In this document: positions 32,929 through 40,336 of the stretch, piece by piece
Numbering within the stretch: the stretch's first letter is position 1
How the letters are laid out: every line of letters starts with the position of its first letter
Assembly (NCBI GenBank): GCA_947600065.1
Contig: CANQFZ010000015.1
Span: 1 to 40,478, forward strand
Length of the DNA: 40,478 nucleotides
DNA from: an uncultured Clostridia bacterium
GTDB lineage: Bacteria; Bacillota; Clostridia; Oscillospirales; Ruminococcaceae
Direction: 5' to 3'
Translations under genes and position numbers: made by a program
Notes under the pieces: model-generated
The model's database searches: none
What the model was told of the DNA's origin: nothing
Seen by the model: the letters and a program-made list of their open reading frames with translations, nothing else

Positions 32929-32960
32929 AAACCCGCGTTCCTTTTCAGAACGCGGGTTTT
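32929..32960 (+). terminator. Terminator after DUF5662 gene
   Basis: AAACCCGCGTTC (32929-32940) pairs with GAACGCGGGTTT (32948-32959), 12 bp, loop of 7, ending in four T's. The long hairpin repeat at 32961 begins directly after it. Confidence 0.8.
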
Positions 32961-33065
32961 CAGACTGTATATAAAGCCCCATCTGCTGTGTCAGCGGCAC
33001 TGCGGCAGGCACAAAGCCTAGCCGCAGCACCGCTTCCTTGCATCTGGGGCTTTCTCTACAGTCTG
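32961..33065. repeat. 105-bp long-hairpin intergenic element
   Basis: The element begins CAGACTGTA and ends TACAGTCTG. Nested pairs follow: AAAGCCCC (32973-32980) with GGGGCTTT (33046-33053); AGCGG (32993-32997) with CCGCT (33030-33034); CTGCGGC (33000-33006) with GCCGCAG (33021-33027); AGGC (33007-33010) with GCCT (33016-33019). Its first 36 bases match 38743-38778 at 29 of 36 positions. It lies between convergent genes. No direct repeats flank it. Confidence 0.75.
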
Positions 33066-33095
33066 AAGTTTGCCTTTTTTTATACAGTGTGTGGA

Positions 33096-33794: not shown

Positions 33795-33821
33795 GCGCAA
33801 ATATGTGACTATTTGTGTTCT

Positions 33822-33938
33822 GTTCTTTCATCCGGACTATACCGTCGGTATCGGAATTTCACCGATTCGGCAGCCGTTTTGTTTAACGGCTGTTCGCGGA
33901 CTATACCGCCGGTGAGGAATTGCACCTCGCCCCGAAAC
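33822..33938 (-). promoter_or_regulatory. FMN riboswitch (RFN element)
   Basis: On the minus strand the RFN conserved blocks are seen in order: TTCGGGGCGAGGTG, ATTCCTCACCGGCGGTATAG, a variable hairpin AGCCGTTAAACAAAACGGCT, ATCGGTGAAATTCCGA, ACCGACGGTATAGTC and CGGATGAAAG. The aptamer senses FMN and controls ribU. The rest of the 303 bp between ribU and the kinase gene holds its promoter and the terminator. Confidence 0.96.
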
Positions 33939-33972
33939 AGATTAAAATTTATTTGTGATTTCTCACATCTAC

Positions 33973-36676: not shown

Positions 36677-37027
36677 TCAGTCCAGATTTCCGAGTGCGGA
36701 AATGACCTTTTCATATTCCGTTTTTACAATTTCCGCAAGCTCGGGGGTGTTTTCGGCTACTTCGTTCCTTAGCGCTTCCGTAAGGTCCGAAGAAGCTTTT
36801 TGGAGATTGTCAAGTCCTAAATTAGCGCAAACTCCTTTTAATGTGTGCGCCATTCTGAAAGCGAGCTGATAGTCCTTTTCACCGAGCGATCTAAAAAGTT
36901 CTTCGGCGGTCTTGTCGTTCGGGAATTTTTTTACAAACTTGTCGAGCATTTTTTCCGAGTTTCCCATTCTCATGAGCGCCGCATTAAAGTCAGAGCCAAT
37001 GCTCTCATAAAATTCCTTTAAAGTCAA
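36677..37027 (-). CDS. Hpt-domain phosphotransfer protein
   Basis: A 116-residue single Hpt domain. The phospho-accepting histidine is H61 in AFRMAHTLKGVCANLG. It would pass phosphate between the hybrid kinase downstream and the regulator upstream. The start is uncertain: TTG 37027 lies 9 nt after GAAGGGAG, whereas TTG 37036 directly abuts that site and cannot use it. Either way it overlaps the regulator gene (23 or 32 bp), which suggests coupled translation. Confidence 0.88.
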   Translation of the reverse strand: MTLKEFYESIGSDFNAALMRMGNSEKMLDKFVKKFPNDKTAEELFRSLGEKDYQLAFRMAHTLKGVCANLGLDNLQKASSDLTEALRNEVAENTPELAEIVKTEYEKVISALGNLD

Positions 37028-38630
37028 TATCGTCAACTCCCTTCAACATTCCGTACGTATAGCCGTATGGCACAAGCTTTCCTATAACTCCCGTATATGA
37101 TGGCGGTTCTTCCGCAGTCCATGTCGTAAGGCAAATAAGCTTATAAGTAAAGCATTTCGCGTTCTCAGGCACCTCGGCTTCGTGACTGTCGCTCAGCAAA
37201 AAGCTGTTTATTTCTTTCCCGTCTTCCGTGGTAATAAACTGGTGGAAATAGAACATCACCACGGGCTCGTCAACGTTCGCTCCTCTTATACGCGATATAA
37301 TAGCGCCGAGCTTGTCTTTTCCGAAGAATTTCGCCAGTCTCCAGTCCGAATGAGGATCCATTATCGTTTCGGGCAATCCCAGAACTGCGGCGGAGTTTTC
37401 GGAGAACGACAACATTCTCGTGGAAACGCTGTATTCAAAGCTGCAGCTTCCCGTAACCTTTTCAAAGAAGCGGTTCTTCAGTCTTTCGTATTCGAGCTTT
37501 CTGAGCAATCTGTCCGAACTGTACAGTGCGTCATTCTTAAGAAGCTCCCGCGCGAACGCTTTAATTTCGTGCTCGTCATTTGTATTCAGCCCGCTGCCTT
37601 TTTCCTTTACGGCGCGCATTTCTTCCTGCGTTTCTTCGAGGCATTGCAGCAGCATGGGATTGAACGTTCCGCATTCCCCGTTCAATATCATTTCCATTGA
37701 CTTTTCGTGAGTATATGCCTTTTTGTATACTCTGTCGGCGGTGAGTGCGTCATAAACGTCCGCAAGAGATACGACCTGCGCCGCTATCGGTATCTCGTCG
37801 CCTTTAAGCCCGTCGGGATAACCGCGCCCGTCCCAGCGCTCGTGATGCCACCGCGCAATGGCGTATGAATACTTTACGATAGGTTCTTCCTCGTGAAAGG
37901 GAAGATCCGAAAGCATTCTCGCGCCCGCCGCAGAATGGGTCTTCATTATCTGATATTCTTCGTTTGTAAGACGTCCCGGCTTATTCAGTATCTCGTCGGG
38001 AATGGAAATTTTCCCTATATCGTGCAGCGCTGCGGCGTTGCAAATAAGCGAAATATCCGCTTCGGAGAGCTGATATTTGTCGGTCATTCTTGAAAGCGCT
38101 TTCAGAAGTATCTCGGTGTAATTCTGAACGTTCTTTACGTGCAGACCGCACTCGTTGTTTCTGAACTCGACTATGTGAGCGAGAATGTCTATCATCATTC
38201 TCGAATTTTTTTCTCTTTCATAAAATTGGTCTGCAAACAGATCCACAAGCTTTTTCTGCTTTGAATACAGAGCAATGATGTTGTGGCAGCGTTTTTGAAC
38301 GACCAGCGAGTCGAACGGTCTGCGGATAAATTCCGTAACACCCAGCTCATAGGCCGTATGAGTAAGCACGGGAGAATCCTCCGAGCTTATCATGATAACG
38401 GGTATATCGTCTATCCAGCTGTTCTTGCTCATTATCTCGAGAACTTCGAGACCGTCCATTTCGGGCATTATCATATCAAGCAGTATGAGCGAGATATCGT
38501 TTGCCCGCTCATTTAACATAGCAATAGCTTCCTTGCCGTTTTCAGCCTCGAGGATCTCATATTCCTCCAGCATATCGGCAAGTATCTCACGGTTCATCTG
38601 AGAGTCGTCAACAATAAGAATTTTTCCCAT
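37005..38630 (-). CDS. Response regulator with HD-GYP domain and C-terminal PAS-like domain
   Basis: A 541-residue regulator. Residues 1-125 are a receiver (VDDSQMN; acceptor D52 in LLLDMIMPEMDG; the usual Lys-Pro is Arg-Pro). Residues about 140-320 are HD-GYP: HD at 203-204 in AALHDIGKISIPDEIL, WHHERWDGRGYPDGL with GYP at 270-272, and SLADVYDALTADRVYKKAY. This domain is a c-di-GMP phosphodiesterase in known members. Residues about 385-520 look PAS-like (FEYSVSTRMLSFSENSAAVLGLPE). It is the first gene of the phosphorelay operon. No c-di-GMP cyclase is in the window. Confidence 0.92.
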   Translation of the reverse strand: MGKILIVDDSQMNREILADMLEEYEILEAENGKEAIAMLNERANDISLILLDMIMPEMDGLEVLEIMSKNSWIDDIPVIMISSEDSPVLTHTAYELGVTEFIRRPFDSLVVQKRCHNIIALYSKQKKLVDLFADQFYEREKNSRMMIDILAHIVEFRNNECGLHVKNVQNYTEILLKALSRMTDKYQLSEADISLICNAAALHDIGKISIPDEILNKPGRLTNEEYQIMKTHSAAGARMLSDLPFHEEEPIVKYSYAIARWHHERWDGRGYPDGLKGDEIPIAAQVVSLADVYDALTADRVYKKAYTHEKSMEMILNGECGTFNPMLLQCLEETQEEMRAVKEKGSGLNTNDEHEIKAFARELLKNDALYSSDRLLRKLEYERLKNRFFEKVTGSCSFEYSVSTRMLSFSENSAAVLGLPETIMDPHSDWRLAKFFGKDKLGAIISRIRGANVDEPVVMFYFHQFITTEDGKEINSFLLSDSHEAEVPENAKCFTYKLICLTTWTAEEPPSYTGVIGKLVPYGYTYGMLKGVDDIDFKGIL

Positions 38631-38701: not shown

Positions 38702-38730
38702 AGAATACGTTTTGCAGAAAAGTATGTAAA
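38702..38730 (-). promoter_or_regulatory. Candidate promoter of the phosphorelay operon
   Basis: On the minus strand TTTACA (38730-38725) and TATTCT (38707-38702) are spaced 17 bp, about 70 bp before the regulator start. The -10 is weak. The -35 lies inside the left 19-bp direct repeat. Confidence 0.45.
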
Positions 38731-38742
38731 TAAACATTACAT
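38724..38742. repeat. 19-bp direct repeat, left copy
   Basis: ATGTAAATAAACATTACAT occurs here and, identically, at 39098-39116. The copies abut the two ends of the block 38743-39097. The sequence has ATGTAA/TTACAT arms, so it could also be a protein-binding site. Confidence 0.8.
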
Positions 38743-38802
38743 CAGACCGTATATAATACCCCGTCTGCTTCGTCATCGTTTTGAGCGGCAAACAGCCTTT
38801 CG

Positions 38803-38837
38803 CCTTAAACTCTTACATCTTATCTCTAACCTCTAGA
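38803..38837 (+). repeat. Heptamer array inside the MITE-like block
   Basis: CCTTAAA, CTCTTAC, ATCTTAT, CTCTAAC and CTCTAGA in phase. The middle three units are identical to the array at 29210-29230. Confidence 0.7.
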
Positions 38838-38838
38838 A

Positions 38839-38897
38839 GCGGGGGTTGCGGGGACGGGAGCCCCCGCACTCTCCCCCTTTCCCCTCGGGAAAGGGGG
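38839..38897. repeat. Two adjacent GC-rich hairpins
   Basis: GCGGGGG (38839-38845) pairs with CCCCCGC (38861-38867). CCCCCTTTCCC (38873-38883) pairs perfectly with GGGAAAGGGGG (38887-38897) around a 3-base loop. Neither is followed by a T-tract, so they are repeat structures rather than terminators. Confidence 0.75.
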
Positions 38898-38902
38898 CAG
38901 GG

Positions 38903-39065
38903 GGATAGGGCGAGATAACGTTATTTAAAGAAATACCGTTTTAGAAATAAGATGATGGAAGATAGAGTTTGAAAGAAGAAGTTATTCTTGGTTGAAAACA
39001 AATTCTAACCTCTTACTTCTAGCAGGATAGGGCGAATAAACGTTATTTATAGAAATATCGTTTAA
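38903..39065 (+). repeat. Pair of 41-bp direct repeats
   Basis: 38903-38943 and 39025-39065 both start GGATAGGGCGA and continue through ACGTTATTTA and AGAAATA to CGTTT; 35 of 41 positions agree. Each is preceded by a heptamer array (38803-38837 and 39003-39023), which suggests an internal duplication of a heptamer-plus-GGGCGA module. Confidence 0.75.
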
Positions 39066-39097
39066 AAAGAACTCCAAATCGGTATATATACAAACTG

Positions 39098-39116
39098 ATG
39101 TAAATAAACATTACAT
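39098..39116. repeat. 19-bp direct repeat, right copy
   Basis: Identical to 38724-38742; begins at the base after the CTG end of the block 38743-39097. Confidence 0.8.
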
Positions 39117-39233
39117 TTACACACATCTACAAAATACATTATAACATATAATTCATTTTTTGTCAACAACAAACGCCCGAATTTTTAAATAATGCGCACA
39201 AAGTGCATAAAGAAAATAAACGGCAAAAATTAC

Positions 39234-39262
39234 TTGACAAAACGCCCTAAATGCCTTATAAT
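39234..39262 (+). promoter_or_regulatory. Sigma-A promoter of galE
   Basis: TTGACA (39234-39239) and TATAAT (39257-39262), 17-bp spacer, 85 bp before galE. Confidence 0.9.
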
Positions 39263-39346: not shown

Positions 39347-40336
39347 ATGAGCATACTTGTTCTGGGCGGAGCGGGCTATATCGGTTCTCATACGGCGCTT
39401 GAGCTTGTGAGAGCGGGGGAGAGAGTGGTTGTCGCGGATAATCTGTCTACGGGGCATATACAGGCTGTCCCCGAGGGCGCGAAGTTCTATAAAGGCGACT
39501 TGCATGACAAATCGTTTCTTGACAGCATTTTTGAAAACGAGCAGATAGACGCAGTCATTCATTTCGCGGCATATTCTCTTGTCGGTGAGAGCGTTACAAA
39601 CCCTCTCAAATATTATGACAACAATCTTTGCGGAACGAAAGTTCTGCTTTCTTCAATGGTCGAGCATAGGATAGACAAGATAGTATTTTCATCTACTGCG
39701 GCTACCTATGGCGAGCCTGAGAATATTCCCATTCTTGAAACGGACAGGACGCTGCCGACAAATCCATATGGCGAAACCAAGCTCGCGATGGAGAAAATGT
39801 TTTACTGGACGGCAAACGCTCACGGTATGAGATACGTTTCACTTCGCTATTTCAATGCCTGCGGCGCGGATAAATCGGGACATATAGGAGAGGCACATAA
39901 CCCCGAAAGCCACCTTATACCGCTTATACTTCAGGTGCCTAACGGAAAGCGCGACAGCATTTCGATATTCGGAACGGATTATGATACGCCCGACGGAACG
40001 TGCATACGCGATTATATTCATGTTACGGATCTAGCGCAGGCGCATATACTTGCGGTTCAATATCTGAGAAACGGAAACAAGAGCGATATATTCAATCTCG
40101 GAAACGGCGTTGGATATTCCGTGCGCGAGGTAATAGAAACTGCGCGTAAGGTCACGGGACATTCTATTCCCGCAGTAGAAGCGGATAAGCGCGCGGGCGA
40201 TCCCGCAAGGCTCGTGGCATCGAGCGAAAAGGCGAGAAAAGTCCTCGGTTGGGATCCTAAGCACGCAAGCCTTGAAGAAATAATCGCTGACGCATGGAAT
40301 TGGCATAAGACCCACCCGAACGGGTTCGAGGAATAG
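39347..40336 (+). CDS. galE: UDP-glucose 4-epimerase
   Basis: Interconverts UDP-glucose and UDP-galactose using bound NAD. The 329-residue SDR protein has the NAD motif LVLGGAGYIGSHTALEL, FSSTAATYGEP, the catalytic NPYGETKLAMEKM (Tyr-x3-Lys) and YFNACGADKSGHIGEAHNPESHLIPL. The ATG at 39347 has AAAAGAGG upstream; a longer reading from 39251 would overlap the -10 box and is rejected. It is alone behind its own promoter. Confidence 0.96.
   Translation: MSILVLGGAGYIGSHTALELVRAGERVVVADNLSTGHIQAVPEGAKFYKGDLHDKSFLDSIFENEQIDAVIHFAAYSLVGESVTNPLKYYDNNLCGTKVLLSSMVEHRIDKIVFSSTAATYGEPENIPILETDRTLPTNPYGETKLAMEKMFYWTANAHGMRYVSLRYFNACGADKSGHIGEAHNPESHLIPLILQVPNGKRDSISIFGTDYDTPDGTCIRDYIHVTDLAQAHILAVQYLRNGNKSDIFNLGNGVGYSVREVIETARKVTGHSIPAVEADKRAGDPARLVASSEKARKVLGWDPKHASLEEIIADAWNWHKTHPNGFEE

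Follow-up and report, generated by a model that had tools for sequence, protein, structure and literature searches.

The window, by which we mean the whole 40,478-nucleotide stretch of DNA analyzed here, is contig 15 of a 2.22-Mb assembly in 80 contigs (98.6% complete by estimate), with uncultured Clostridia and Oscillospiraceae MAGs as its nearest named relatives, the closest ones coming from isolates labelled Lapin. An operon comprising a response regulator/HD protein, an Hpt protein and a hybrid kinase lies on one side of the region of interest and a galE-like gene on the other, with the following features:

37005-38630, minus strand: response regulator receiver and HD domain protein (PF00072, PF13487), first gene of the operon carrying the element in its predicted leader
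38702-38730, minus strand: promoter-like match of lower quality, TTTACA-17-TATTCT, between the block and the response-regulator gene (9/12, frequent in shuffles)
38724-38742, no strand: target-site duplication, left copy, palindrome ATGTAA-N7-TTACAT with a 6-bp stem; one copy in three relatives
38743-39097, plus strand: non-coding MITE-like element of 355 bp, not present in three relatives
38743-38778, plus strand: left end of the element, CAGACCGTATATA..., resembling that of 60 of the 72 other complete members at 78-88% identity along its first 26-39 bp
38825-38941, no strand: interior modules recurring widely in the genome, mostly without element ends (at least 60 matches listed in the own genome, the block itself counted, after scoring of 40 of the 214 candidates)
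38903-38946, plus strand: internal 44-bp repeat, first copy (84% identity, spacing 122)
39025-39068, plus strand: internal 44-bp repeat, second copy (84% identity to the first)
39025-39097, plus strand: right end region of the kind seen in the longer subfamily, 73-82% identical to that of L097, L123, L135, L266 and L267, with inverted CAGTTTGTATATA at its end
39098-39116, no strand: target-site duplication, right copy
39099-39121, no strand: inverted repeat TGTAAA-N11-TTTACA, stem 7, overlapping the right target copy, operator-like by position
39138-39166, minus strand: leftward promoter match TTGACA-17-TATAAT just beyond the insertion (12/12, consensus match only; same hexamers in the three relatives)
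39234-39262, plus strand: promoter match upstream of the galE-like gene (12/12, consensus match only)
39347-40336, plus strand: galE-like NAD-dependent epimerase (PF01370)

The two copies of the 19-mer ATGTAAATAAACATTACAT at 38724-38742 and 39098-39116 are identical at 19 of 19 positions and are separated by exactly 355 bp (38743-39097), which start with CAGACCGTATATA and end, read inverted, with CAGTTTGTATATA; the preliminary description of exact 19-bp repeats bounding a 355-bp block with imperfect inverted ends was therefore confirmed in positions and identity. The terminal inverted repeats form 19-nt arms that are 84% complementary and take in 6 bp of each 19-mer. Allowing up to 3 mismatches, the window holds the 19-mer at just those two places (0.02 expected), while the whole assembly adds 2 further places, each with 3 mismatches, vs. 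1 for the reversed-pattern control. No ORF of at least 60 aa in the ORF list of the window overlaps the block, bearing out the earlier view that it has no coding capacity, and as single-stranded DNA the block folds better than its shuffles (z -4.87). The 19-mer is itself a palindrome, its 6-bp stem being attained by 0.6% of shuffles.

Recognizing that the 12/12 leftward promoter match lies on the galE side of the block, we place the block in the predicted 5' leader of the response-regulator operon rather than upstream of its promoter. The left flank had been thought to contain the likely -35 of this phosphorelay operon, but it offers only the 9/12 match, and the hexamers and spacing of the match at 39166-39138 are identical by eye in the three relatives. 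The insertion is thus predicted to add 374 nt to the 5' leader, with the predicted promoter and the promoter-proximal palindrome staying whole. That palindrome, the TGTAAA-N11-TTTACA repeat just downstream of the leftward promoter match, is a candidate operator or leader hairpin of the operon; it is whole in the window, and the empty sites of the relatives have versions of it with stems of 5 to 7 bp. The right flank does lie upstream of galE, as described before, but galE, whose expression the insertion had been suspected of changing, keeps its 12/12 promoter match more than 100 bp away.

Comparison with three relatives revealed the state of the locus without the block. In L009, L010 and L012 the neighboring response regulator is 97-98% identical, both flanks are kept at 88-95% DNA identity (over 99 bp only for the right flank of L010) and the flanks meet, with each alignment showing a single 18-19-bp version of the 19-mer and zero trace of the block. 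As these are contigs of G002, G006 and G009, our two empty-site searches covered the identical three genomes; among the nine genus genomes in which the locus was searched, the intergenic region is kept in these three and is empty in 3/3, and in the remaining six the alignment, among the matches listed, is confined to coding parts and repeat modules. Elsewhere in their sequence, the three genomes with empty sites carry 25 (G002), 53 (G006) and 32 (G009) matches to the family ends. For another young copy, L244, the flank has so many matches across the searched genomes that no unique empty site was found, and the DNA surrounding the window element had no match in the plasmid collection (near mode). 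The 355-bp block is a transposed element. The reading of the preliminary description, a transposed element with a target-site duplication, is supported by the empty sites and by the large family of ends described below; the single-19-mer sites that it foresaw exist in the three relatives, elements bounded by CAG...CTG are abundant, and the 19-mer does not recur as an operator.

The ends of the block belong to a high-copy family of short non-coding elements. In G000, the genome of the window, the family ends CAGnCTGTATAtAaAG (pattern CAGNYTGTATAWARAGNC, 0 mismatches) have 61 exact matches (control 1), CAGNNNGTATATA has 51 (control 8) and an 18-mer pattern of the right end, allowing 2 mismatches at most, has 129 (control 2). 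The CAGNYTGTATAWARAGNC pattern matches 9 of 25 genus genomes, the own genome counted, and 1 of 16 others; of six more genus genomes that contain IS copies like L192 or remnants of such copies, three have it (33 times in G053, 12 in G057 and once in G051). From the fetched loci we collected 100 distinct left ends and recognized the right end for 73, dropping the other 27. Most of these 73 complete members measure 75-184 bp, and at least 10 measure 208-395 bp. The window element joins a left end as found in 60 of the 72 other members to a right end as found in the longer members, and its ends depart from the family pattern at a few positions. A near-identical second copy of the 355-bp version was not found among the matches listed, the next best being 78% identical over about 200 bp. 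In G006, three identical 243-bp copies are each found at a different hairpin, with 26-29 bp duplicated, which suggests recent movement. With its short length, absence of a transposase gene, inverted ends, target duplication with an empty site and multi-copy ends, the block has the attributes of a MITE.

The window contains a second family member, of the short type:

32961-33065, plus strand: short family member whose outer right end would be near 33089, separated by one base from a terminator-like hairpin at 32929-32959

The hairpin adjoining this member has 13 pairs, and the right side (to 33089) shows no visible duplication. We also considered whether the matches to the interior modules are all full elements and rejected this, given that the end motif stands on both sides within 420 bp in 4 of 38 fetched core loci (a stricter both-ends script found 2 of 38, missing L097 and L102). 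The short members at many loci (L126-L161) have a central hairpin in two forms, CTGCGGCAGGC-ACAAA-GCCTAGCCGCAG and CTGCAACAGCC-ACAAA-GGCTAGTTGCAG, which by eye differ by compensating stem changes around the same loop; this hairpin may be a structured element of its own. Stretches resembling CTCTAACCTCTAGAAG / CTTCTAGAGGTTAGAG (window 38806-38837, L135) recur in many of the matched places and flank an inner segment of L135 as inverted repeats, and may represent a nested family of repeats. Short members have a doubled right end, for example L151 with tandem CAGnCTGTA motifs 24 bp apart, and some short members seemingly end at the inner motif. In G057, loci L339, L341, L343, L345 and L349 form a subfamily with ends CAGTCTGTATAAAAAGTCGGTTATAAAAAA (variants in L341 and L343) that stands, by eye, directly after strong hairpins. 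No Rfam family matched the element at the gathering threshold, the sole match in the window being an FMN riboswitch elsewhere (33817-33943, minus strand, 108.6 bits); at E up to 1, L240 and L138 gave three matches under the gathering score, and L001 and L151 gave none.

We then asked what these elements leave at their targets. A duplication score of at least 6 was reached by 16 of the 73 complete members, vs. 0.10 expected from re-paired flanks, with four further rows at scores of 4 or 5 left out of the count. The other 57 had no clear duplication at this score, possible reasons being age, misplaced right ends or a rule that is not general. The duplications fall into two groups: 1) nine members have duplications of 16-31 bp, all nine palindromic, with stems of 5 to 13 bp that reach to within 2 nt of both borders and shuffle frequencies of at most 0.009; 2) seven members have duplications of 6-11 bp, none of them palindromic. 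Since L182 and L183 share one flank cluster, the nine long duplications represent eight independent sites, the window locus among them. In the palindrome shuffle test, the four IS rows had been picked for a visible repeat, while the nine MITE rows were free of such choice.

The same preference is seen at single ends. Of 138 ends, 34 have a stem of at least 7 pairs at a distance of 0-2 nt, vs. 0-4 at seven control positions further out. As the 138 ends include orthologous insertions in related genomes, we reduced them to one end per flank cluster, whereupon a strong hairpin abutted 28 of 124 vs. 0-3 at the controls. The hairpin idea arose on part of these data, and the held-back count is that of clusters found only in loci fetched after it had formed, namely 10 of 47 vs. 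0-1 at the controls. Palindromes are a preferred target of the family, with a strong hairpin not abutting 96 of the 124 independent ends (about three quarters). These data suggest that how much of the site is copied depends on the shape of the target and not on a fixed ruler. The palindrome at the window locus is among the weakest of the long duplicated ones, and the 19-bp duplication is a weak but regular case of hairpin duplication. It had been remarked that 19 bp is long for a target duplication; the length is real, but the worry is removed by the habit of the family, documented by eight independent sites and seven full IS1182 elements, of copying the target palindrome whole.

These full elements point to the likely driver. 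NF033551, the profile of the IS1182 transposase, has some match in 16 of 43 genus genomes and a match over the cut-off in three. The best transposase, that of L192 in G053 (476 aa, NF033551 378.8 bits, PF05598 and PF13751), belongs to an intact IS of 1.5 kb with ends CAGTCTGTATATAAACCCC and inverted CAGCTTGTCC and the same exact 34-bp palindrome on either side, in a genome that also holds the 33 MITE-end matches mentioned above; L193 in G020 has a 21-bp palindrome on either side. The ends of the MITEs resemble those of IS1182 elements, both in L192 and in L217 (G051), where the MITE 18-mer pattern is matched exactly by the end lying upstream of a fragment of the transposase start.

We examined both flanks of 11 IS1182 loci, namely the three genus copies above the cut-off (L192-L194), three of the four top plasmid matches (Enterococcus being left out) and five hand-picked for their harmless hosts from the 60 rows listed of 331 records. 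A duplicated palindrome of 19-34 bp was found in seven: besides the genus copies L192 (34 bp) and L193 (21 bp), these are L293 of Acetoanaerobium (24 bp), L295 of Cetobacterium (22 bp), L327 of Peribacillus (24 bp), L328 of B. subtilis (19 bp) and L329 of Rhizobium (25 bp). Four had none (L194, L294, L326 and L330): in L294 (Thermocaproicibacter) and L330 (Alkalihalophilus) the hairpin at one end differs from that at the other (in L330 the left one is imperfect), L326 has a hairpin on the right side only, and L194, of a distant subgroup, has no hairpin. The element of L294/L305 is on plasmid pTVN of Thermocaproicibacter melissae near a cas10 gene, and its two different hairpins without duplication appear as after recombination between two copies or a deletion. 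Outside the 11 comparators, the remnants L196, L199 and L202, with guessed bounds, had no flanking repeat; in five genus remnants with an end facing a transposase piece, four ends abut a hairpin by eye (L208, L196, L226 and L217) and that of L195 does not, the L209/L216 end having been dropped because it points away from the transposase fragment.

Taken together, we consider it very probable that the block is a MITE with IS1182-type ends, inserted in trans by an IS1182-family transposase, often at palindromic targets. Such a transposase would recognize the ends CAGnCTGTATAtAaAG... and inverted CAGnyTGTATAaAaAG... and then insert the element, often at a palindrome; the target hairpin or cruciform would be recognized as such and the strands joined at its feet, while targets without a hairpin would yield the short duplications of 6-11 bp. 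We find evenly balanced the further proposition that a branch of DDE transposases may read the shape of the target and not its sequence, joining at the feet of the extruded hairpin, in which case the hairpin and not the enzyme would set the length of the long duplications (16-34 bp).

Among other explanations, the one that survives best, if still improbable, is that the MITE and its target duplication owe their existence to a transposase of another family that has CAG..TATA ends and a taste for hairpins. It draws on the results of the transposase searches, in which none of the nine end-bearing genus genomes showed an intact IS1182 transposase despite the recent-looking copies in G006: none was found in G000 with the PF13751, NF033551 and PF01609 profiles or with the L192 protein, and the other eight yielded NF033551 fragments in G024 and G017, one PF01609 fragment in G017 and no match to the L192 protein (PF13751 covered the own genome, NF033551 and the L192 protein the 43 genus genomes, and PF01609 the nine end-bearing genomes). 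However, the intact IS1182 elements of this end type in the genus, L192 and L193, have similar ends, the same type of target and a duplicated palindrome, and G053 has an IS1182 element together with many MITE ends. Multi-copy IS are often lost from short-read MAG assemblies, and such loss is the reason we prefer for the missing transposase.

An IS1182-type insertion is also to be set against the alternative raised in the preliminary description, i.e. that a palindromic operator (ATGTAA/TTACAT) was duplicated around unrelated sequence without any transposition: the palindromy is real, and the overlapping TGTAAA..TTTACA repeat is found in the relatives at an operator-like distance from the consensus promoter match, but this reading, which we regard as highly implausible, is contradicted by the clean empty sites in three relatives, by ends common to a large family and by the failure of the 19-mer to recur as an operator in the genome, and as a sole explanation it is ruled out. 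Equally hard to credit is a replacement of the IS1272 type, in which a hairpin is swapped out and the flanking repeats are leftovers, as suggested by the report that IS1272, of the IS1182 family, replaces target hairpins without duplication (PMC5678879, PMC4923244, as far as the available portions go); removal of the hairpin at this locus is contradicted by the whole palindrome on either side and by relatives with one copy and no extra flanking sequence, although a replacement of this kind may apply to family members without duplications.

The IS1182-type reading places the family close to, and yet apart from, what the available portions of the literature describe. IS1272 and TnSha1 of Staphylococcus likewise target an inverted repeat or terminator hairpin without a sequence consensus; the former is reported to replace the inverted repeat without duplication (PMC5678879), and both are reported to delete the hairpin (PMC4923244, which also refers to Siguier and colleagues on the targeting of palindromes by certain members of the IS1182 family), with no target duplication left by either, in contrast to the window family, which duplicates it. 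ISPse1 of Paracoccus, also assigned to the IS1182 family, differs by a value of 4 in a table column presumed to give the duplication length (PMC3281130). In view of hairpin deletion by IS1272 and TnSha1, this value for ISPse1 and whole-palindrome duplication here, the IS1182 family is heterogeneous in the outcome of insertion, insofar as these partial sources show. The IS1182 elements proper (NF033551, DUF772 and DDE_Tnp_1_6; L192 and L193) share with the window element the CAGnCTGT... ends, hairpin or terminator-like targets and whole-palindrome duplication, but the window element is 355 bp long and lacks a transposase gene. Other prokaryotic MITEs, including the pneumococcal BOX, RUP and SPRITE elements named in the available text of one review, are likewise short, non-coding and intergenic, with inverted ends and presumably moved in trans, but differ from the window family with its hairpin-sized, target-dependent duplication and IS1182-type ends; IS1182 is not mentioned in the main text of that review as available (PMC10969869). 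Among the matches listed in our searches, mostly of open literature, there was no description of IS1182-type MITEs or of whole-hairpin duplication as an observed rule.

The length of the target duplication is normally taken as a constant of a transposase. In the material studied here, it ranges from 6 to 34 bp and, above 11 bp, tracks the target hairpin. The natural duplication of a whole hairpin corresponds to an outcome that the available portion of PMC5678879 draws as a hypothetical pathway only (legend of Fig. 13, 3b-6b). The triple copies in G006 and the intact IS flanked by 34-bp palindromes lend themselves to a direct test of structure-directed integration. The lesson for annotation is that two copies of a long palindrome can stem from duplication of a target instead of being paired operators. 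If the transposase does read shape, a terminator or operator palindrome would be copied whole and a functional palindrome could thus remain on either side of the element; insertions could then be mild, and non-coding derivatives could reach high copy numbers in terminators and leaders.
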